Shown here: in pieces, positions 384 through 51,183 of the stretch
How positions within the stretch are numbered: position 1 is the first letter of the stretch
Layout of the letters: each line of letters starts with the position of its first letter
From: Deferribacter desulfuricans SSM1
GTDB lineage: Bacteria; Chrysiogenota; Deferribacteres; Deferribacterales; Deferribacteraceae
Direction of reading: 5' to 3'
DNA: 64,000 nucleotides
Assembly: GCF_000010985.1 (NCBI RefSeq)
Contig: NC_013939.1
Location: 186,001-250,000, forward strand
Notes under the pieces: generated by a model
Told to the model about the DNA's origin: nothing
Seen by the model: only the letters and a program-made list of their open reading frames with translations
Databases searched by the model: none
Position numbers and translations under genes: made by a program

Positions 384-3111
384 TTTTTTCCTCATCAGAT
401 AATTTTTCTAAAATTGCATAAATATCATCTATATTTATAGGTTTTTTGAGAGCTGCTGCAAAACCGTAAATTTGATAATTTGAGAGTAAATCATCCTCAG
501 AATAACCACTCATAACAACAGTTTTGACATCTATCTTATTTTTGATGAGATATTTTATTAAATCTCTTGCACCCATACCACCTTTAATTGTAACGTCAGC
601 AAATATTATATCAAATTTTTCTGTTTTTAACATTTCGATTGCTTCTTCACCTGTTGCAACCGATTTTACACTACACCCTATTGATTTCATTAGAAGGTTC
701 ATAGAATCTCTTATATAAAAATCGTCATCAACTACTAAAATACGCTTTCTTATCCGTCCTAAATGCATTATATTTTCATTTTGCGCTTTTTCATCTTGCT
801 TTCTTGCCAATGGGAGATAAATAATAAATTCTGTTCCTTCACCTTTTATTGATTTAATACTTATATGGCCATTATGGTTTTTAATGATGTTGTATGTTAT
901 AAAAAGTCCTAAACCACTTCCTCTTTCTTTTGTTGAAAAATATGGGTCGAAGATTTTATCTATAATACCTTCTTCAATTCCTGGGCCGTTATCTTTTACT
1001 CTTATAAGTGCATAGTCCCCTTTTGTTAATCCCATTAAGTTTTTACTTATGTATTTAGTTTCAATAGATAATGTGATTTTACCTTTATTTTTCATCGCTT
1101 CTTTAGCATTTATGAAAAGGTTTTGAAATACCTGAAAAATTTGTGTTTCATCCCCCTTGATATAAACATCATTTATCTTAGAGTTTATATCTAAAGTGAT
1201 ATTGCTTCCTGCAAGTGAAAGTTCTTTTGCAGTATTAATTACGTCTTTTAAATTTATTATATCATTTTTGATTATGTCGCCAGATGATAAAGTAAAAAGT
1301 TTGTTTGAAATATTTTTCCCCTGATCTACAATTTCGTCAATTTTATATATTACATCGATACTATCAGCACCAGATAGTTTTACCAAAGATATATAATTTT
1401 TTATTGATGCTAGTATATTGTTAAAGTCGTGGGCAATCCCTCCAGCTAACAAGCCAATTGATTCTAATTTGTTTTTTCTTAATTCTTCCATTTCTCGATG
1501 AACTTCATCAGTTATGTTGTAAAGAACAATTAAAAAACCTTCCCCTTTAGTATTAAAAAAGAGGGGAGCTTTGAAAATATTTAAAATATAAGTTTGATTT
1601 TTATTGTTGGTAAAATAGTACCTATTTGATAAATCTTGCAAATTTAATAGATTATATTTTTCACCGTTTGATTCCAGAATTAATTCATTGATTACGTTTG
1701 TATTGTTGTCAAAGCATGTGATATTATAAAATGCTTGATTAGCTAAATCTATTGAACCATCAAAGTTTATTAATGCAATCCCTTCTTTTACATTGTTGAT
1801 GACAGTTTCCAATTTTTCTTTTTCATATTGAATTTTTTTATTTAATTGCATAGTTACTGTATAGTCGTGTATTGCTATTAAGAAATTATCGGAAATTTTA
1901 TAACTTTTTATGACTGCATATTTTCTTAGGTCATTATTGTTTCTTAGTTTTGCTATATTGATAAAATCATTTGAAGTAGCTTCTATTTTGCTAATATAGT
2001 TACACCCTTCACACGGGGTATTTCTGTTTGCAAAGATTTGATAACATTTTTTATCAATTACTTCATTATCGGCATTGATAAAATGTTTTTCAGCTTCGTT
2101 TATAAATTTTAAGTTATAATCTTTATCAACAATATAAATACCCATCTCCAGTGTGTTTAAAATCTTTAGTAGGTTTTGTTCTGATTCCTTTAAAGATGCT
2201 AATTTCGCGTAATATTTTTTCAAAAAATCATTAAATTCTATAATTTTTGTATATGTTATCTCTTTTATACTTTTACCTTCTTCAATATCTTTTATTGAGT
2301 TTGAAAACTTATTTAGCGGAGCTAATAAATATTTTTTTAGTGTGTTAGAGATAAGAATAATTATAACAATCAAGGCTAAGATTATAGCAATAGCAAATTT
2401 TAAGTTGTTGTAAATATAGGGTGTAAAATAAGATTTATTTTTCTTTAAAACTATGAATACGTTAAAATCAGGTAAGTATTGTGTATAAAAATAGAAATTT
2501 TTATGTGAAACTATTTTATCAACATTAGATTTATTAAATGGGATAATTTCTGGAGTATAAAATGTTAAAAGTATATTGTTTTTGGAATACAGATAAATAT
2601 CTGACTCTATCTCCTTTTCCAAATCAAATAATAGTTGATTGATGTTGAATATTGAAATGATCTTTGAATCATCCAATTTTGTCACAAGAATATAGGAAAG
2701 AATACCTTTCTCCAATGAGATTTCATTTTTGTTAAATTTTAAAATTTCTTCTGGGCTTAGTATCCTTACTTTGCTAAAATTAAAAATTACCTCGTCTTTT
2801 TTTATTATAAAGAAATGTCTGAGTTTCTTTAGTTTATAAAGTTGATATTTAAAAAGATTTATATCTAAACTGTTTGGTTCTTTTAGGTAAATTTCTGCGA
2901 TATTTTCTAAATTTTTATGCTCACTTACAAATTTTGTTTTTGTTATTGTTTCTATTTTACTAATACTGTCTGCGAAATAATCTTTGATGAACTTATTGTA
3001 GTCACTTTTTAGGATAAAAAGTATATAAGCTATAAAAAATATTATAAAGATTAAAGCAATTAGTGAAAATCTTTTAAAAAGAAATGTTGAAAAGTGCTCA
3101 CTTTTTTTCAT
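373..3111 (-). CDS. Membrane-bound hybrid histidine kinase with PAS domains and receiver
   Basis: A 912-residue sensor kinase. Visible order: transmembrane helix about 16-35, periplasmic domain about 36-235, second helix about 236-256, linker/HAMP-like region, PAS about 315-420 and PAS about 430-540. Next come HisKA with phosphoacceptor His561 (GGIAHDFNN), an ATPase domain with an N-box near 668 and G-boxes DNGPGI near 707 and GSGLGL near 731, and a C-terminal receiver with phosphorylatable Asp839. The first PAS carries a CxxC pair (C367, C370) in a PCEGC motif plus C356, which could bind metal or sense redox state. No DNA-binding output is present, so the phosphoryl group probably passes to an unlinked partner or the receiver is autoregulatory. 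It overlaps the binding-protein gene upstream by 14 bases and the Cys-rich gene downstream, so the three are very likely one operon. Confidence 0.9.
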   Translation of the reverse strand: MKKSEHFSTFLFKRFSLIALIFIIFFIAYILFILKSDYNKFIKDYFADSISKIETITKTKFVSEHKNLENIAEIYLKEPNSLDINLFKYQLYKLKKLRHFFIIKKDEVIFNFSKVRILSPEEILKFNKNEISLEKGILSYILVTKLDDSKIISIFNINQLLFDLEKEIESDIYLYSKNNILLTFYTPEIIPFNKSNVDKIVSHKNFYFYTQYLPDFNVFIVLKKNKSYFTPYIYNNLKFAIAIILALIVIIILISNTLKKYLLAPLNKFSNSIKDIEEGKSIKEITYTKIIEFNDFLKKYYAKLASLKESEQNLLKILNTLEMGIYIVDKDYNLKFINEAEKHFINADNEVIDKKCYQIFANRNTPCEGCNYISKIEATSNDFINIAKLRNNNDLRKYAVIKSYKISDNFLIAIHDYTVTMQLNKKIQYEKEKLETVINNVKEGIALINFDGSIDLANQAFYNITCFDNNTNVINELILESNGEKYNLLNLQDLSNRYYFTNNKNQTYILNIFKAPLFFNTKGEGFLIVLYNITDEVHREMEELRKNKLESIGLLAGGIAHDFNNILASIKNYISLVKLSGADSIDVIYKIDEIVDQGKNISNKLFTLSSGDIIKNDIINLKDVINTAKELSLAGSNITLDINSKINDVYIKGDETQIFQVFQNLFINAKEAMKNKGKITLSIETKYISKNLMGLTKGDYALIRVKDNGPGIEEGIIDKIFDPYFSTKERGSGLGLFITYNIIKNHNGHISIKSIKGEGTEFIIYLPLARKQDEKAQNENIMHLGRIRKRILVVDDDFYIRDSMNLLMKSIGCSVKSVATGEEAIEMLKTEKFDIIFADVTIKGGMGARDLIKYLIKNKIDVKTVVMSGYSEDDLLSNYQIYGFAAALKKPINIDDIYAILEKLSDEEKNEL

Positions 3112-39533: not shown

Positions 39534-41122
39534 GATTATGGGATATTTCTGATTATCAAGATTTAAAAGCGGATGGATTTGAAAGCAATTTTAACTATTT
39601 TAAAAATCTAATTGAATCTTTGTTTAAGCTTCAGATGAATCCAGCGATGGCAAAATCGATAGCAAAAAGCTTGAAGATTTCAACAAAGCTTTTTTGGAAA
39701 AAGTTGAGTGATGATTATAAATATTTTTTGGAAAAATATGCAGTTATAAATGGTATATCAAGGACTGAATTGTTATATGCCATCATGTTTCCAGATATTT
39801 TGTCATATTTTATGGTTAAAGCTGGGAAGATGAACTTTAGGAATATTCCTGATATATTTTTAGGGTGTACTACCTCTTTATTGAAAAGTGATGAAAATTC
39901 AACAATGCACTGCAGGAATTTGGATTATTTTGGTGGTTCTTTTTGGACAGCACAACATACTATTATGACTTATAGATTAGCAAATGTTGTTCCAAGTGTG
40001 AATATTACGACATGGGGGTTGCCTGTAATAGGTATTACTGCAGTGAATGAAGCAGGTATTTCTCAATCTGTTCATATGCTTTTTACTCAGGATGTAAGTC
40101 TGAAGGGTAGTTTTATTATGGATCTCGCATATCAGGTAATAACTAAGGCAGAATGTATTGAGGATGTGAAAAAGATTTTAAAAAAAAGAAGGACTGTCTC
40201 TGGTTGGACAATAATTAACTACAGTCATAGAGAAAATAAAGGGGTTATTTCTGAGATTAGTGCAAAAGATATTGATTTTATTGAAATAGATAAGCCTGTT
40301 TTCCATTATAATAATTTTTACATTTCTGAAAAATTGAAGAAATCAGAATTTTATCCGTCTTACATTTGGATTCAGAACAACCATTACAGGAATAAAAGAC
40401 TTTATGAATTAACAAAGAATAAAGATATTTTTAATGAAAATGATGCGGTAAAATTGATTTCTGATAATAATGACTATTTTTTGAAAGATAATGATATTTT
40501 TGGACATACTGTGGCAAACAGTTTTACAGTTTCCTCTACAGTAATCGATTTTAATAAAGATTGTATTTTGGTTGGTGATAATCCACCTCCAGCTTCAATT
40601 GGTGTATTTAAAAAATATAATTTAACCGATTTGTTTAAAGGTAAATTAGAAGAGGTAGGTAGGAATAAAACAAATCATGATGAAGAAACTTATAGAATTT
40701 ATGAATTGGTTGTAAAGGTTATGGATAATTTATATTCAGGGAAAGGGTATTATTCCAGCTTGGAACTTATCAATAAATCTGATTTAGAAATTGAAAATAG
40801 TTACTTTTTACAATTGTTAAAATCAGTTTTGCTGATAAAAGTTGAAGATTATATTGGAGCGAAGAAAATTTTAAAAAGAATTATAGAATCAAATAAACTC
40901 GATACTTATAGAAATGGAAATGTGAAACTTTTATTAGGTATGATTTATGATGTAATTGGGGAGAGGGGGAAAGCGATAAAAATTTATAAAGAGATTTTAG
41001 CGCAGAACAGTTTTTTTGACCTTTTAGATTATGCTTGGAAATTTTATAATAAAAGATGCTGTAAAAGTAAGCTGCAAAAGATTGTGCCAAACTTTTTCCT
41101 CTCTTTTTATTTGTTGGTTTAG
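39530..41122 (+). CDS. C45/acyltransferase-like Ntn hydrolase with TPR-like C-terminus
   Basis: A 530-residue protein. The middle part (about 105-365) resembles the AAT/C45 family (acyl-CoA:isopenicillin N acyltransferase and relatives). LGCTTS holds the probable autocatalytic nucleophile Cys113, followed by HCRNLDY where the family has (A/G)RNxD(W/Y), and NEAGISQS. The N-terminal 100 residues would form the pre-piece. The last 120 residues are helical and read as two or three TPR-like repeats (YIGAKKILKRI, ERGKAIKIYKEIL), an unusual addition. The start at 39530 follows GGGAGAG and overlaps the ogt stop; an in-frame ATG at 39515 is less likely. The substrate is unknown; amide bonds or acyl peptides are typical. 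Confidence 0.75.
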   Translation: MRLWDISDYQDLKADGFESNFNYFKNLIESLFKLQMNPAMAKSIAKSLKISTKLFWKKLSDDYKYFLEKYAVINGISRTELLYAIMFPDILSYFMVKAGKMNFRNIPDIFLGCTTSLLKSDENSTMHCRNLDYFGGSFWTAQHTIMTYRLANVVPSVNITTWGLPVIGITAVNEAGISQSVHMLFTQDVSLKGSFIMDLAYQVITKAECIEDVKKILKKRRTVSGWTIINYSHRENKGVISEISAKDIDFIEIDKPVFHYNNFYISEKLKKSEFYPSYIWIQNNHYRNKRLYELTKNKDIFNENDAVKLISDNNDYFLKDNDIFGHTVANSFTVSSTVIDFNKDCILVGDNPPPASIGVFKKYNLTDLFKGKLEEVGRNKTNHDEETYRIYELVVKVMDNLYSGKGYYSSLELINKSDLEIENSYFLQLLKSVLLIKVEDYIGAKKILKRIIESNKLDTYRNGNVKLLLGMIYDVIGERGKAIKIYKEILAQNSFFDLLDYAWKFYNKRCCKSKLQKIVPNFFLSFYLLV

Positions 41123-41278: not shown

Positions 41279-41306
41279 TTGACAAATGTAAATTAATTAT
41301 TATTGT
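41279..41306 (+). promoter_or_regulatory. Promoter of the candidate small RNA
   Basis: Perfect TTGACA (41279-41284), a 16-base spacer and TATTGT (41301-41306); initiation expected near 41312-41314. The nearest downstream terminator is at 41357-41383 and no start codon with an open frame lies between. Confidence 0.6.
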
Positions 41307-41311
41307 ACACC

Positions 41312-41384
41312 CATCAATTATGGACATCCTCCCATAGTAATAGATAACTCCCCCACAAAAAGGGACCGAAAGGTCCCTTTTTTA
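41312..41384 (+). ncRNA. Candidate C-rich small regulatory RNA
   Basis: A predicted transcript of about 72 bases in the 310-base gap 41123-41432, which has no gene. Strand-specific signals frame it: a TTGACA promoter and an ideal terminator. Inside, ATTATGG (41317-41323) pairs with CCATAGT (41332-41338), one wobble, presenting the 8-base loop ACAUCCUC. An unpaired stretch then contains ACUCCCCCAC (41347-41356), followed by the terminator stem. Exposed CCUCC and CUCCCCC are complementary to Shine-Dalgarno sequences, the usual property of C-rich bacterial sRNAs. The loop plus the next C is a perfect 9-base complement of the dapA ribosome binding site. No family is recognised; the 5' end is uncertain by a few bases. 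Confidence 0.6.
41357..41383 (+). terminator. Terminator of the small RNA
   Basis: AAAAAGGGACC / GAAA / GGTCCCTTTTTT: a perfect stem with a GNRA tetraloop and a six-T tail. Confidence 0.92.
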
Positions 41385-41432: not shown

Positions 41433-43157
41433 ATGAATGATAAGTTGATTGATCCAGTTGAGATTGCTGAGGATATTTTTTGGGTTGGACATGAATTGCC
41501 AGATGACCCTTTTCAATGCCATGTATATTTAATATTAAATGGGAAAGGTTCTATTTTAATCGATCCTGGTTCTAAGATAACTTTTAAATATGCATTAGAG
41601 AAGATTGAGCAGATAATACCCTTTTCGTATATAAAGTATTTTATATGTCAGCATCAAGATCCTGACATTACAGCATCCTTGGAAATCATAAGAGATCTTT
41701 TGATTAGAGATGATGCAGTTATTGTTAGCCATTGGAGAGCTATTGCTCTCTTAAAACATTACAACCTAAACATCCCTATGATATGTGTGGAAAAGGAAAA
41801 TTGGAAGTTAAACGCAGGTGGGAGAGAATTAGAGTTTATCTTTACACCATATTGTCATTTTCCTGGTGCTTTTTGTACTTATGATAAAAAAAGCAAAGTC
41901 CTATTTTCAAGTGATTTGTTTGGTGGATTTACAGATAGGTTCAAACTTTTTGCAGAAGATATTAATTATTTTGATTCAATAGCTGCCTTTCATGAACCCT
42001 ATATGCCATCAAAAGAGATTTTAGTACATAGTTTAAAAAAAATTGAACAGTATGATATTGATTTAATCGCTCCTCAACATGGATCAATTATTAGGAGAGA
42101 TTTGATAAAACCTATAATAAATAAAATGAAAAATCTTGATTGTGGGCTTTTTTTGCTTACGCAATCAAGTACTGAGTTGGAAAAGCTTAGAAAGCTGAAT
42201 AAATTCTTAAACGCTTTTTTGGAAACAATGGCAACTTATAAAGATTTTACCGAGCTTATTAGAGAGTTTGTTATAGAATTAAGGAGTGCTTTTGATTTTG
42301 ATAGTATTGAATTTTATACAGATTATAAAGGGACACTTTTATATTTTTTAGCTGAGACTCCATCAATATGGGAAAAAATCAAACAGCAAGAATATGTTAA
42401 AGATATTTTACAAATAAAAATGAGTGAGTACTATGAAAAGTACCCTAACTACTTATATGTAAGAAATGTTCTATATATTCCTATCCCTGAAATTGAAAGT
42501 GATAAAATTATTGCTGTTATGAAGTTATATTTAAAAGAGTCTATTGTGATTGATAATGATATTTTAGAAATTCTGAAAGAGGTTATAAATTTCTTAAGTA
42601 TAGCTTTTGAAAGAGAGTTTATCAGAAGAAAATTGATTGAAGAGCGAGAAAAATTTTATGAGATCTCTATACATGATACTTTAACAGGGTGTTATTCTAG
42701 ATATTATTTGAAAGAAACAATAAAGAGAGTTTTAGCGATACATGATAGAGGGGAAATAAGAAATGTTGGTATTGTAATGCTTGATATAGATGACTTTAAA
42801 AATATAAATGACACTTATGGGCACGATGTTGGGGATGAAGTGTTAAAAGTTATTGCAGATATTATTAAAAATGAGGTTAGAGTGGGTGACATCCCTGTTA
42901 GATATGGTGGTGAAGAGTTTATGATTGTTGCGGTGGTAAATGATATCAAAAGTGTTTATATGGTTGCAGAGAGGATTAGAACAAAACTTGAAGAATACAA
43001 ATGGGATGCACCGTTAGATAAGGAAAGAATTACTGCGAGTTTTGGTGTAGTACTTAGGAAAAAAGGGGAATCTTTTGAAGATGTAATTAAAAGAGTGGAT
43101 ATTAATTTGTATAAGGCTAAATCTGCTGGGAAAAATACTGTTATTTGCGAAGAATAA
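41433..43157 (+). CDS. Diguanylate cyclase with N-terminal flavodiiron-type metallo-beta-lactamase domain
   Basis: A 574-residue signalling protein. Residues 1-230 form an MBL-fold domain of the flavodiiron/ODP type. HQDPD (H74, D76, D78), H142 in PYCHFPG, D161 in SSDLFGG and H216 in PQHG match the diiron ligand spacing, while the flavodoxin domain of true FDPs is absent. Residues about 255-395 look like a GAF-type domain. Residues 405-572 are GGDEF with the intact active site GGEEF (492-496) and an RVGD inhibitory site (483-486) five residues before it, so c-di-GMP synthesis with product inhibition is expected. The diiron site could sense O2, NO or peroxide. No membrane segment is visible. 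Confidence 0.87.
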   Translation: MNDKLIDPVEIAEDIFWVGHELPDDPFQCHVYLILNGKGSILIDPGSKITFKYALEKIEQIIPFSYIKYFICQHQDPDITASLEIIRDLLIRDDAVIVSHWRAIALLKHYNLNIPMICVEKENWKLNAGGRELEFIFTPYCHFPGAFCTYDKKSKVLFSSDLFGGFTDRFKLFAEDINYFDSIAAFHEPYMPSKEILVHSLKKIEQYDIDLIAPQHGSIIRRDLIKPIINKMKNLDCGLFLLTQSSTELEKLRKLNKFLNAFLETMATYKDFTELIREFVIELRSAFDFDSIEFYTDYKGTLLYFLAETPSIWEKIKQQEYVKDILQIKMSEYYEKYPNYLYVRNVLYIPIPEIESDKIIAVMKLYLKESIVIDNDILEILKEVINFLSIAFEREFIRRKLIEEREKFYEISIHDTLTGCYSRYYLKETIKRVLAIHDRGEIRNVGIVMLDIDDFKNINDTYGHDVGDEVLKVIADIIKNEVRVGDIPVRYGGEEFMIVAVVNDIKSVYMVAERIRTKLEEYKWDAPLDKERITASFGVVLRKKGESFEDVIKRVDINLYKAKSAGKNTVICEE

Positions 43158-43244: not shown

Positions 43245-44543
43245 ATGATAAATTATGTTTTTGATACAAATGTGCTACTTTATGATCCGATGTCAATTTT
43301 TACTTTTGAAAACAGTGTTATTAATATACCGATTACAGTTATTGAAGAGATAGATATTTTTAAAAAGCACATGGATCAAACAGGTTATAATGCAAGGTTT
43401 GTAGCAAGAAAGCTTGATGAGCTAAGAAGTTTGGGAGAACTAAATAAAGGGGTTAAGATAGAAAATGGCTCTATAATAAGGGTTAATGTCTGTAATCATC
43501 ATTTAAAAGATTTGATACCAGATGAGCTGATTAGTGATAAAGCTGATAACCTTATACTTTCTGTGGCTAAGTACTTGCAGGAAAAAGAGGATAAAGAGGT
43601 TATTTTTGTTACCAAGGATGCTAATTTAAGGATTAAGGCTGATGTATTGGGAATAAAATCAATAGATTATGAAAAAGATAAGGTAGAAATAGAAAGTTTT
43701 TTTGAGGGTGCTAAAAAGGTTGTGGTTAGTGATGACATAATAAATAGATTTTATCAAGATGGGGAGCTTGAAATAGAAATTGATGCAGCTGAAAACGAGT
43801 ATCTGTTTTTGGTTTCAGAAATAAATGAGAAACATACTGCTCTTGGAAGGTATTCTAAGAAAAATGGGAAAGTTGTTAAAATTAAAGAGTTCAAAGAAGG
43901 GGTTTGGGGGATATTTGCTAGAAATGCCGAGCAAAAGTTTGCTTTTGATGCATTGATGGATGATTCTATCAAGCTTGTCTGTTTGATGGGGATTGCGGGC
44001 ACAGGGAAAACACTACTGGCAATAGCAGCAGGACTTAAAAAGGTTGCAGATGATAGGGTTTATAAAAAACTCCTTGTGGCAAGGCCTATTTTCCCTATGG
44101 GAAAAGATTTGGGTTATTTGCCAGGAGAATTGAAAGAGAAATTAAACCCTTGGATGCAACCTGTCTATGATAATTTACAGCTAATTTTATCCAGTGAAGA
44201 TGGTGGTTATTCTTACAAGGCACTTCTTGAGCAAAATATTGTGGAAATTGAAGCTCTTACTTATATCAGAGGAAGGAGTATGCCAAACCAATATTTTATA
44301 GTGGATGAAGCCCAAAATTTAACCCCTCATGAGATAAAAACAATACTTACAAGGGCAGGTGAGAATACAAAGGTTATTTTGACAGGTGATCCTTATCAGA
44401 TAGACAATCCGTATATAGATTATCATTCAAATGGATTGACTTATGTTGTGGATAAATTTAAAGATGACGAAATCGCTGCTGTGGTAACTTTGATAAAAGG
44501 GGAAAGATCTGAGCTTGCCACAAAGGCAGCTAAAAAGTTGTAG
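43245..44543 (+). CDS. PIN-PhoH fusion protein (PhoH2/YlaK type)
   Basis: A 432-residue protein. The N-terminal PIN nuclease domain (about 1-140) has acidic residues in VFDTNVLLYD (Asp7), VIEEID and SDKADNLIL. The C-terminal PhoH ATPase (about 220-430) has GIAGTGKT Walker A and FIVDEAQNLTP Walker B. PhoH2-type proteins are reported as ATP-dependent RNA helicase/ribonucleases, sometimes with an antitoxin-like upstream gene; none is visible here. The ATG follows GGGGTGA. gmhA follows after 9 bases. Confidence 0.92.
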   Translation: MINYVFDTNVLLYDPMSIFTFENSVINIPITVIEEIDIFKKHMDQTGYNARFVARKLDELRSLGELNKGVKIENGSIIRVNVCNHHLKDLIPDELISDKADNLILSVAKYLQEKEDKEVIFVTKDANLRIKADVLGIKSIDYEKDKVEIESFFEGAKKVVVSDDIINRFYQDGELEIEIDAAENEYLFLVSEINEKHTALGRYSKKNGKVVKIKEFKEGVWGIFARNAEQKFAFDALMDDSIKLVCLMGIAGTGKTLLAIAAGLKKVADDRVYKKLLVARPIFPMGKDLGYLPGELKEKLNPWMQPVYDNLQLILSSEDGGYSYKALLEQNIVEIEALTYIRGRSMPNQYFIVDEAQNLTPHEIKTILTRAGENTKVILTGDPYQIDNPYIDYHSNGLTYVVDKFKDDEIAAVVTLIKGERSELATKAAKKL

Positions 44544-51086: not shown

Positions 51087-51183
51087 TGGCGGGAGTGGGA
51101 AGGGATCGAACCTTCCGCCCGCTAAGATAACGGGCCAATCGGCTTTGAAGGCCGCGGGGAGCACCAGCTTCCCAACCACTCCC
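51087..51183 (-). tRNA. selC: tRNA-Sec (anticodon UCA)
   Basis: Read on the minus strand: an 8-pair acceptor stem GGGAGTGG/CCACTCCC, discriminator G and encoded CCA. The anticodon stem CGGC/GCCG has loop CTTCAAA (anticodon TCA), and a long variable arm contains GCCCG/CGGGC. The T arm is GAAGG-TTCGATC-CCTTC. The 8-pair acceptor, long variable arm and UGA-reading anticodon together are specific to selenocysteine tRNA. The gene begins 5 bases after the stop of the cNMP-binding protein gene on the same strand. Its presence implies SelA, SelB, SelD and at least one selenoprotein elsewhere in the genome. Confidence 0.95.

Follow-up and report, generated by a model that had tools for sequence, protein, structure and literature searches.

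According to the available part of the source, the AbcR1/2 small RNAs (sRNAs; alpha-r15) of Rhizobiales, including Sinorhizobium, carry CUCCUCCC in a 5' loop and UUCCCCUC between stem-loops, and their targets include livK, other mRNAs for binding proteins of ATP-binding cassette (ABC) transporters and mRNAs of metabolic enzymes (PMC8844928). The accessible portions of two further papers describe NmsR/NgncR_162/163 from Neisseria, two siblings with several stem-loops whose duplexes block the ribosome-binding site and whose targets lie in branched-chain amino-acid transport and central metabolism (PMC9973317), and RoxS/RsaE and FsrA from Firmicutes, whose C-rich regions pair with central-metabolism mRNAs, including their Shine-Dalgarno sequences (PMC8216469). 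Here we analyse a stretch of 64,000 nucleotides from Deferribacter desulfuricans SSM1 (NC_013939.1, positions 186,001 to 250,000), hereafter the window, in which an initial annotation had placed a candidate C-rich anti-Shine-Dalgarno sRNA with its own promoter and terminator. Comparative data support this reading, and we regard the locus as probably a stand-alone gene for a trans-acting anti-Shine-Dalgarno RNA of ~72 nucleotides, with a predicted regulon of methylmalonyl-coenzyme A (CoA) metabolism and transporter binding proteins.

As far as the excerpted source describes AbcR1/2, the Deferribacter RNA resembles them in its two anti-Shine-Dalgarno motifs, one in a 5' hairpin loop and one between hairpins (although the hairpin is not conserved in the carrier family f8), and may do so in its targets, binding-protein mRNAs being predicted here from sequence. 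Unlike AbcR1/2, it is ~72 nucleotides long with a hairpin plus terminator, is encoded by a single gene instead of two homologous ones and was found here only in Deferribacterota; moreover, some of its targets seem matched by both C-rich stretches together, and the part of the source available has each AbcR motif working on its own. With NmsR/NgncR_162/163 it would share the blocking of ribosome-binding sites and the type of target, and with RoxS/RsaE and FsrA the pairing of C-rich regions with metabolic mRNAs; the former belong to another phylum and no relation to them was detected, while the latter differ in sequence, structure and phylum.

In line with the initial annotation, which recognised no known family, no Rfam family reached its gathering score on the segment, and permissive scans gave weak scores only. 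AbcR has an Rfam model, and no sequence relation to AbcR1/2 was detected. The best plus-strand score belonged to Atu_C8 (RF02502), with 23.5 bits against a gathering score of 50 and a match lying mainly in the terminator and U tail. The locus thus appears to represent an undescribed RNA family of a known regulator type, which may work like AbcR1/2. Our literature searches found nothing on sRNAs in Deferribacter, Deferribacteres or D. desulfuricans, including Hfq and transcriptome work, and a 2026 Deferribacter genome paper, in its available part, treats transcriptomics as future work only (PMC13186404). The RNA would be the first conserved riboregulator in Deferribacter and the Deferribacteres, with named targets. 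Its design looks to have arisen separately from those of AbcR, NmsR and RoxS, and would make C-rich anti-ribosome-binding-site control of amino-acid uptake and catabolism recurrent in bacteria.

Conservation and fold of the RNA

Copies were sought by BLAST in 59 genomes with a 126-base query, and by pattern and sequence model in 50 genomes of the phylum. BLAST gave four strong matches beyond the window, one in a genome of the same genus (G001, E = 1.2e-25) and three in another family (f8: G021, G008 and G015, with 1.4e-13, 3.4e-9 and 7.7e-8 among them), the remaining weaker matches being short pieces. Two additional copies in a third family (f3: G010 and G017) were recovered with a 14-letter pattern for both C-rich stretches, and a sequence model built from the seven copies, R1, scored below E = 1e-15 in 7 of the 50 genomes, the next best value being 0.004. 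By this model the carriers are both f1 genomes (G000, the window genome, and G001, which we take to be Deferribacter), all three f8 genomes and two of the three f3 genomes.

A 33-base core is 94-100% identical to the window copy in the six relatives from three families, whereas blocks upstream of the promoter or downstream of the terminator are only 40-72% identical. This core reads CAUCCUCCC-A(A)-UAG(U/C)AAUAGAU-(U)AACUCCCCCA, that is, two C-rich seeds (A and B) separated by a linker, and its changes between families amount to one substitution, a U to C in the linker at an N position of an ARN motif, and two single-base indels, both at the linker edges. The MAFFT alignment of the copies is one base off at seed B, whose presence was taken from the sequences themselves. 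All seven copies keep a TTGAC element with a 16-nucleotide spacer to a -10-like hexamer, which the core follows at a distance of 17-19 bases, and all have a terminator, the stem of which is unrelated in sequence between families. Conservation, which the initial annotation had proposed as a check, was thus borne out for the promoter and the C-rich stretches in 7/7 copies. Judged from these copies, selection keeps both C-rich seeds and the 12-nucleotide linker in their primary sequence, rather than the hairpin.

No convincing second copy was found in the window's own genome. Weak R1 matches in other families (E 0.004-1), read where loci were at hand (in one set 9 of 12, the other three lying near a contig end), mostly look by eye like coding sequence or terminator-only matches. 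In one of the weak matches, in G038 (L066, ~1501-1557, minus strand; R1 E 0.008), an AU-rich block, UUUUCCCCAC and a terminator follow each other much as in the sRNA; the family of G038 lacks Hfq, and the element is possibly an unrelated small RNA. An exact pattern, searched over wider genome contigs, hit two stretches, both from Deferribacteraceae metagenome-assembled genomes; this search recovers only two of the seven known copies, which makes it insensitive outside the phylum, and may omit records near the window. The same pattern had no match in viral contigs.

The promoter, the ~72-base segment and the GNRA-loop terminator all lie where they had been drawn, within a gene-free gap of 310 bases that extends from the end of a 535-amino-acid open reading frame (ORF) at 41122 to an ATG at 41433 (Table 1). 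The promoter matches 10 of 12 consensus positions; its score alone is not above chance in this AT-rich DNA (37 such sites per 5 kb versus 28.4 +/- 5.5 in shuffles), and four terminator-like sites were observed for 1.3 expected. The locus stands above chance because the core is conserved.

The RNA of 73 nucleotides is predicted to fold at -23.3 kcal/mol (z-score -5.85). Most of this stability is that of the terminator, since the 54-nucleotide segment without it has a z-score of -1.97, with 8 of 200 shuffles as good. The window RNA does fold as the initial annotation described it, with ACAUCCUC in the loop and ACUCCCCCAC unpaired; the compensatory changes looked for in the stem did not materialise, none of its seven pairs being changed on both sides. 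Stem pairing across copies reached 79.5% of cells versus 81.5% in shuffles, and the double changes reported by RNAalifold lie only in the terminator, in an alignment in which terminators are loosely matched. Furthermore, the stem forms in both f1 copies; of the other two families one copy each was folded, giving a three-pair version in f3 and a different structure in f8. The C-rich seeds are conserved and largely unpaired, with the last bases of seed A inside the stem in f1.

Table 1. Coordinates in the window of the sRNA gene, its parts and the PhoH-like gene
Feature	Position	Strand	Remarks
Promoter	41279..41306	+	TTGACA 41279-41284, 16-nucleotide spacer, TATTGT 41301-41306
Small RNA gene	41312..41384	+	5' end predicted at ~41312-41314; length ~72 nucleotides
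Hairpin with seed A in loop	41317..41338	+	Predicted fold, stem 41317-41323 with 41332-41338, loop ACAUCCUC 41324-41331; without covariation support
Seed A, CAUCCUCCC	41325..41333	+	Complements GGGAGGAUG (Shine-Dalgarno plus spacer); invariant in 7/7 copies
Linker AUAGUAAUAGAU	41334..41345	+	12 nucleotides, AU-rich; contains (ARN)3, candidate Hfq distal-face site
Seed B, AACUCCCCCA	41346..41355	+	Complements GGGGGAGUU; present in 7/7 copies
Unpaired stretch ACUCCCCCAC	41347..41356	+	Predicted fold
Intrinsic terminator	41357..41382	+	Strong; 11 pairs, GAAA loop, U tail
PhoH-like gene	43245..44543	+	Adjoins the sRNA in two families; outside the proposed mechanism

Predicted targets and proposed mode of action

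The best-supported targets, as predicted by complementarity, would be the leader of an epimerase-like gene and those of ABC-transporter binding-protein genes, some of them paired by both seeds. In the seven carriers, the two-seed form GGGAGTT-n-GGAGGATG is matched four times beyond the RNA gene, and all four matches sit at binding-protein gene starts, ending 2-4 bases before the ATG (two in G001 and one each in G008 and G015, which are close relatives). The 43 non-carriers have six matches to this form, none at a start. The looser GGGGAG-n-GGAGGATG falls at starts in 3/4 cases in carriers versus 0/18 elsewhere, and brings in the G001 epimerase-like gene. A large part of the control matches comes from one family (f6), and carrier and control groups are unmatched in composition and kinship. 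These counts, as well as the single-seed ones below, exclude the RNA gene's own match in each carrier.

The epimerase-like gene, looked up in nine genomes, belongs to Glyoxalase_4 in Pfam, and the name methylmalonyl-CoA epimerase is our own reading of the sequence. Its leader in G000 would pair with the RNA at -32.2 kcal/mol, a value equalled by none of 300 shuffled RNAs, through 16 contiguous pairs over the ribosome-binding site, three of which are read as G-U. In G001 the leader would pair at both seeds (-38.1 kcal/mol, 0/300 shuffles as good), and the leaders of G008 and G015 each reach -20.2 via GGGGGAGTT directly before the ATG (7/300 shuffles). As a reference, the mean over 35 start regions in the window is -16.4 (standard deviation 4.6, best -26.8), and the non-carriers G002 and G003 are unremarkable at this leader (40/300 and 170/300 shuffles).

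Single-seed sites were examined with GGGAGGATG, the complement of seed A, which occurs seven times in the window genome besides the RNA gene. Six of these sites lie 11-12 bases before a start codon, in front of genes for a Peripla_BP_6 binding protein, an enoyl-CoA hydratase, a B12-binding protein (these by Pfam), a symporter (named by eye) and two products that match no Pfam family; the remaining site falls near the beginning of an aminotransferase class IV gene, and G001 has the same site. In the two Deferribacter genomes, 13/23 sites are placed 10-14 bases before a start, versus 3/25 in G002 and G003, genomes without the RNA that served as controls (Fisher p 0.0018; the counts take in only sites at the queried position). 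Among the Deferribacter single-seed targets, Pfam supports binding proteins, enoyl-CoA hydratase, B12-binding proteins and biotin carboxylase. Counts of GGGGGAGTT alone showed no clear difference from the reversed control. In one set of 30 loci, a start was obtained for all but one.

In the mechanism that we propose, Hfq would bind the U tail and ARN linker of the RNA, and the seeds would anneal to two types of Shine-Dalgarno/start region, GGGAGGAUG-n-AUG and GGGGGAGUU, blocking ribosome binding. The regulon would comprise the epimerase-like mRNA and ABC-transporter binding-protein mRNAs, one of them PotD-like and the others of the branched-chain amino-acid type; in Deferribacter, it would extend to additional acyl-CoA and branched-chain genes. 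The most likely function would be repression of branched-chain amino-acid uptake and of propionyl/methylmalonyl-CoA breakdown, with a lowered uptake and breakdown of branched-chain amino acids and propionyl-CoA as the outcome. A bolder version, which we put forward tentatively and consider rather unlikely, would have a two-point clamp in which both seeds sit on one leader, the ARN linker is looped out on Hfq and the spacing of the two G-rich boxes helps to select targets. This RNA would then be the prototype of a riboregulator family that, in Deferribacterota, governs the metabolism of branched-chain amino acids and methylmalonyl-CoA. An example of such a clamp is the branched-chain binding-protein mRNA of G001, with 13-14 plus 8 contiguous pairs.

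With respect to Hfq, the protein is encoded in 31 of the 50 genomes, including all seven carriers. The linker reads (ARN)3-4, with AGU-AAU-AGA inside it, and according to the available part of the source ARN motifs are favoured by the distal face of Hfq (PMC7237705); in AT-rich DNA, finding three such triplets is nothing unusual. These features hint at a possible binding of the U tail and ARN linker by Hfq in class II style. Besides canonical Hfq (~79-83 amino acids), most Hfq-bearing genomes of the order encode a second protein of ~166-200 amino acids with two tandem Hfq matches, which in the window genome is a 166-amino-acid ORF outside the window (G000:C1:152329-152829; L304:330-830, minus strand); phrase searches of the literature for tandem Hfq gave only unrelated work. 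Families f4 and f7 (19 genomes) have no Hfq match, and all other families have Hfq.

Several observations weigh against the regulon as proposed. The single-seed enrichment is confined to Deferribacter and may reflect how ribosome-binding sites are usually built in that genus: the five f8 and f3 carriers have only 4/44 GGGAGGATG sites at starts, no better than the controls (p 0.70), so the single-seed test gives no tie between the RNA and its targets outside one genus. Shine-Dalgarno sequences are, moreover, inherently complementary to C-rich RNA. Two-seed sites are held by three of the seven carriers; the window genome has no match of the searched forms except the RNA gene itself, and in G008 and G015 the second site of the binding-protein target appears, from our reading of the sequence, to coincide with the 3' coding end of the gene upstream. 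At the epimerase leader, the carriers G021, G010 and G017 are unremarkable (248, 104 and 96 of 300 shuffles), and the duplex energies given above ignore target folding, are judged against shuffles that keep base composition only and are not ranked genome-wide. Finally, 24 Hfq-bearing genomes are without the RNA; in G003, and likewise in families f2 and f6, Hfq is present and the RNA absent.

One alternative is a trans-acting anti-Shine-Dalgarno sRNA whose regulon differs from the proposed one or is far wider, the methylmalonyl-CoA and binding-protein theme being an accident of which leaders carry long G-rich ribosome-binding sites. This explanation is possible, albeit doubtful, in our view. 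It would account for the lack of single-seed enrichment in f8 and f3 carriers and for an epimerase site that is not kept in three of the seven; it fits poorly with the two-seed matches outside the gene, 4/4 at binding-protein starts in two families, and with the complementarity of the epimerase-like leader in four of the seven carriers. The narrower methylmalonyl-CoA and binding-protein regulon is the one that we retain as probable.

Gene neighbourhood and other explanations

In G001 (f1) and G010 (f3), the RNA is followed by a PhoH-like gene, with the terminator ~60-80 bases upstream of it. Furthermore, the f3 genome G003 is without the RNA and without the close type of PhoH gene, only a 47% homologue being present, and this joint absence suggests loss of the locus. 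Both observations would suit a 5' leader or attenuator that controls the gene after it (the PhoH-like gene, or the diguanylate cyclase in the window) and terminates unless a signal permits read-through. Such a leader is nonetheless improbable. In the window, a metallo-beta-lactamase-like/GGDEF gene sits between the RNA and the PhoH-like gene; in G008 and G015, the next ORF in either direction lies on the opposite strand. Close PhoH homologues occur in f2 without the RNA, f8 has its PhoH gene elsewhere without the RNA beside it, the terminator stems are not conserved and no alternative antiterminator was seen. The RNA was found in at least three gene neighbourhoods, with pheA and other genes as neighbours in f8 and a prepilin-like ORF ~220 bases downstream in G021. 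The differences in terminator stems and neighbours speak for an independent gene of a trans-acting RNA and against a leader: it is intergenic, has a predicted promoter and terminator of its own and does not depend on its neighbours.

Still less probable is that the arrangement arose by chance, lacks a function or is a short coding sequence. The promoter score, taken alone, agrees with chance; the core is conserved against drifted flanks, and the two single-base indels between families at the linker edges break any reading frame through it. Least probable of all is a protein-titrating RNA of the CsrA type acting through GGA motifs instead of base-pairing, because the GGA directly before seed A in f1 and f8 is missing from the f3 copies, which read UGGCAUCC, and the invariant letters are C-rich and AU-rich.

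The gene downstream of the RNA in the window (41433-43157) encodes a protein of 574 amino acids, named by eye, in which a metallo-beta-lactamase-type (ODP-like) domain appears to be fused to a GGDEF diguanylate cyclase; it is not found between the sRNA and the PhoH-like gene in G001. A further PhoH-like match with 46% identity lies on the second contig of the genome (G000:C2:72839-73579). Elsewhere in the window, a selenocysteine tRNA (RF01852, 67.4 bits) is located on the minus strand at 51091-51183.
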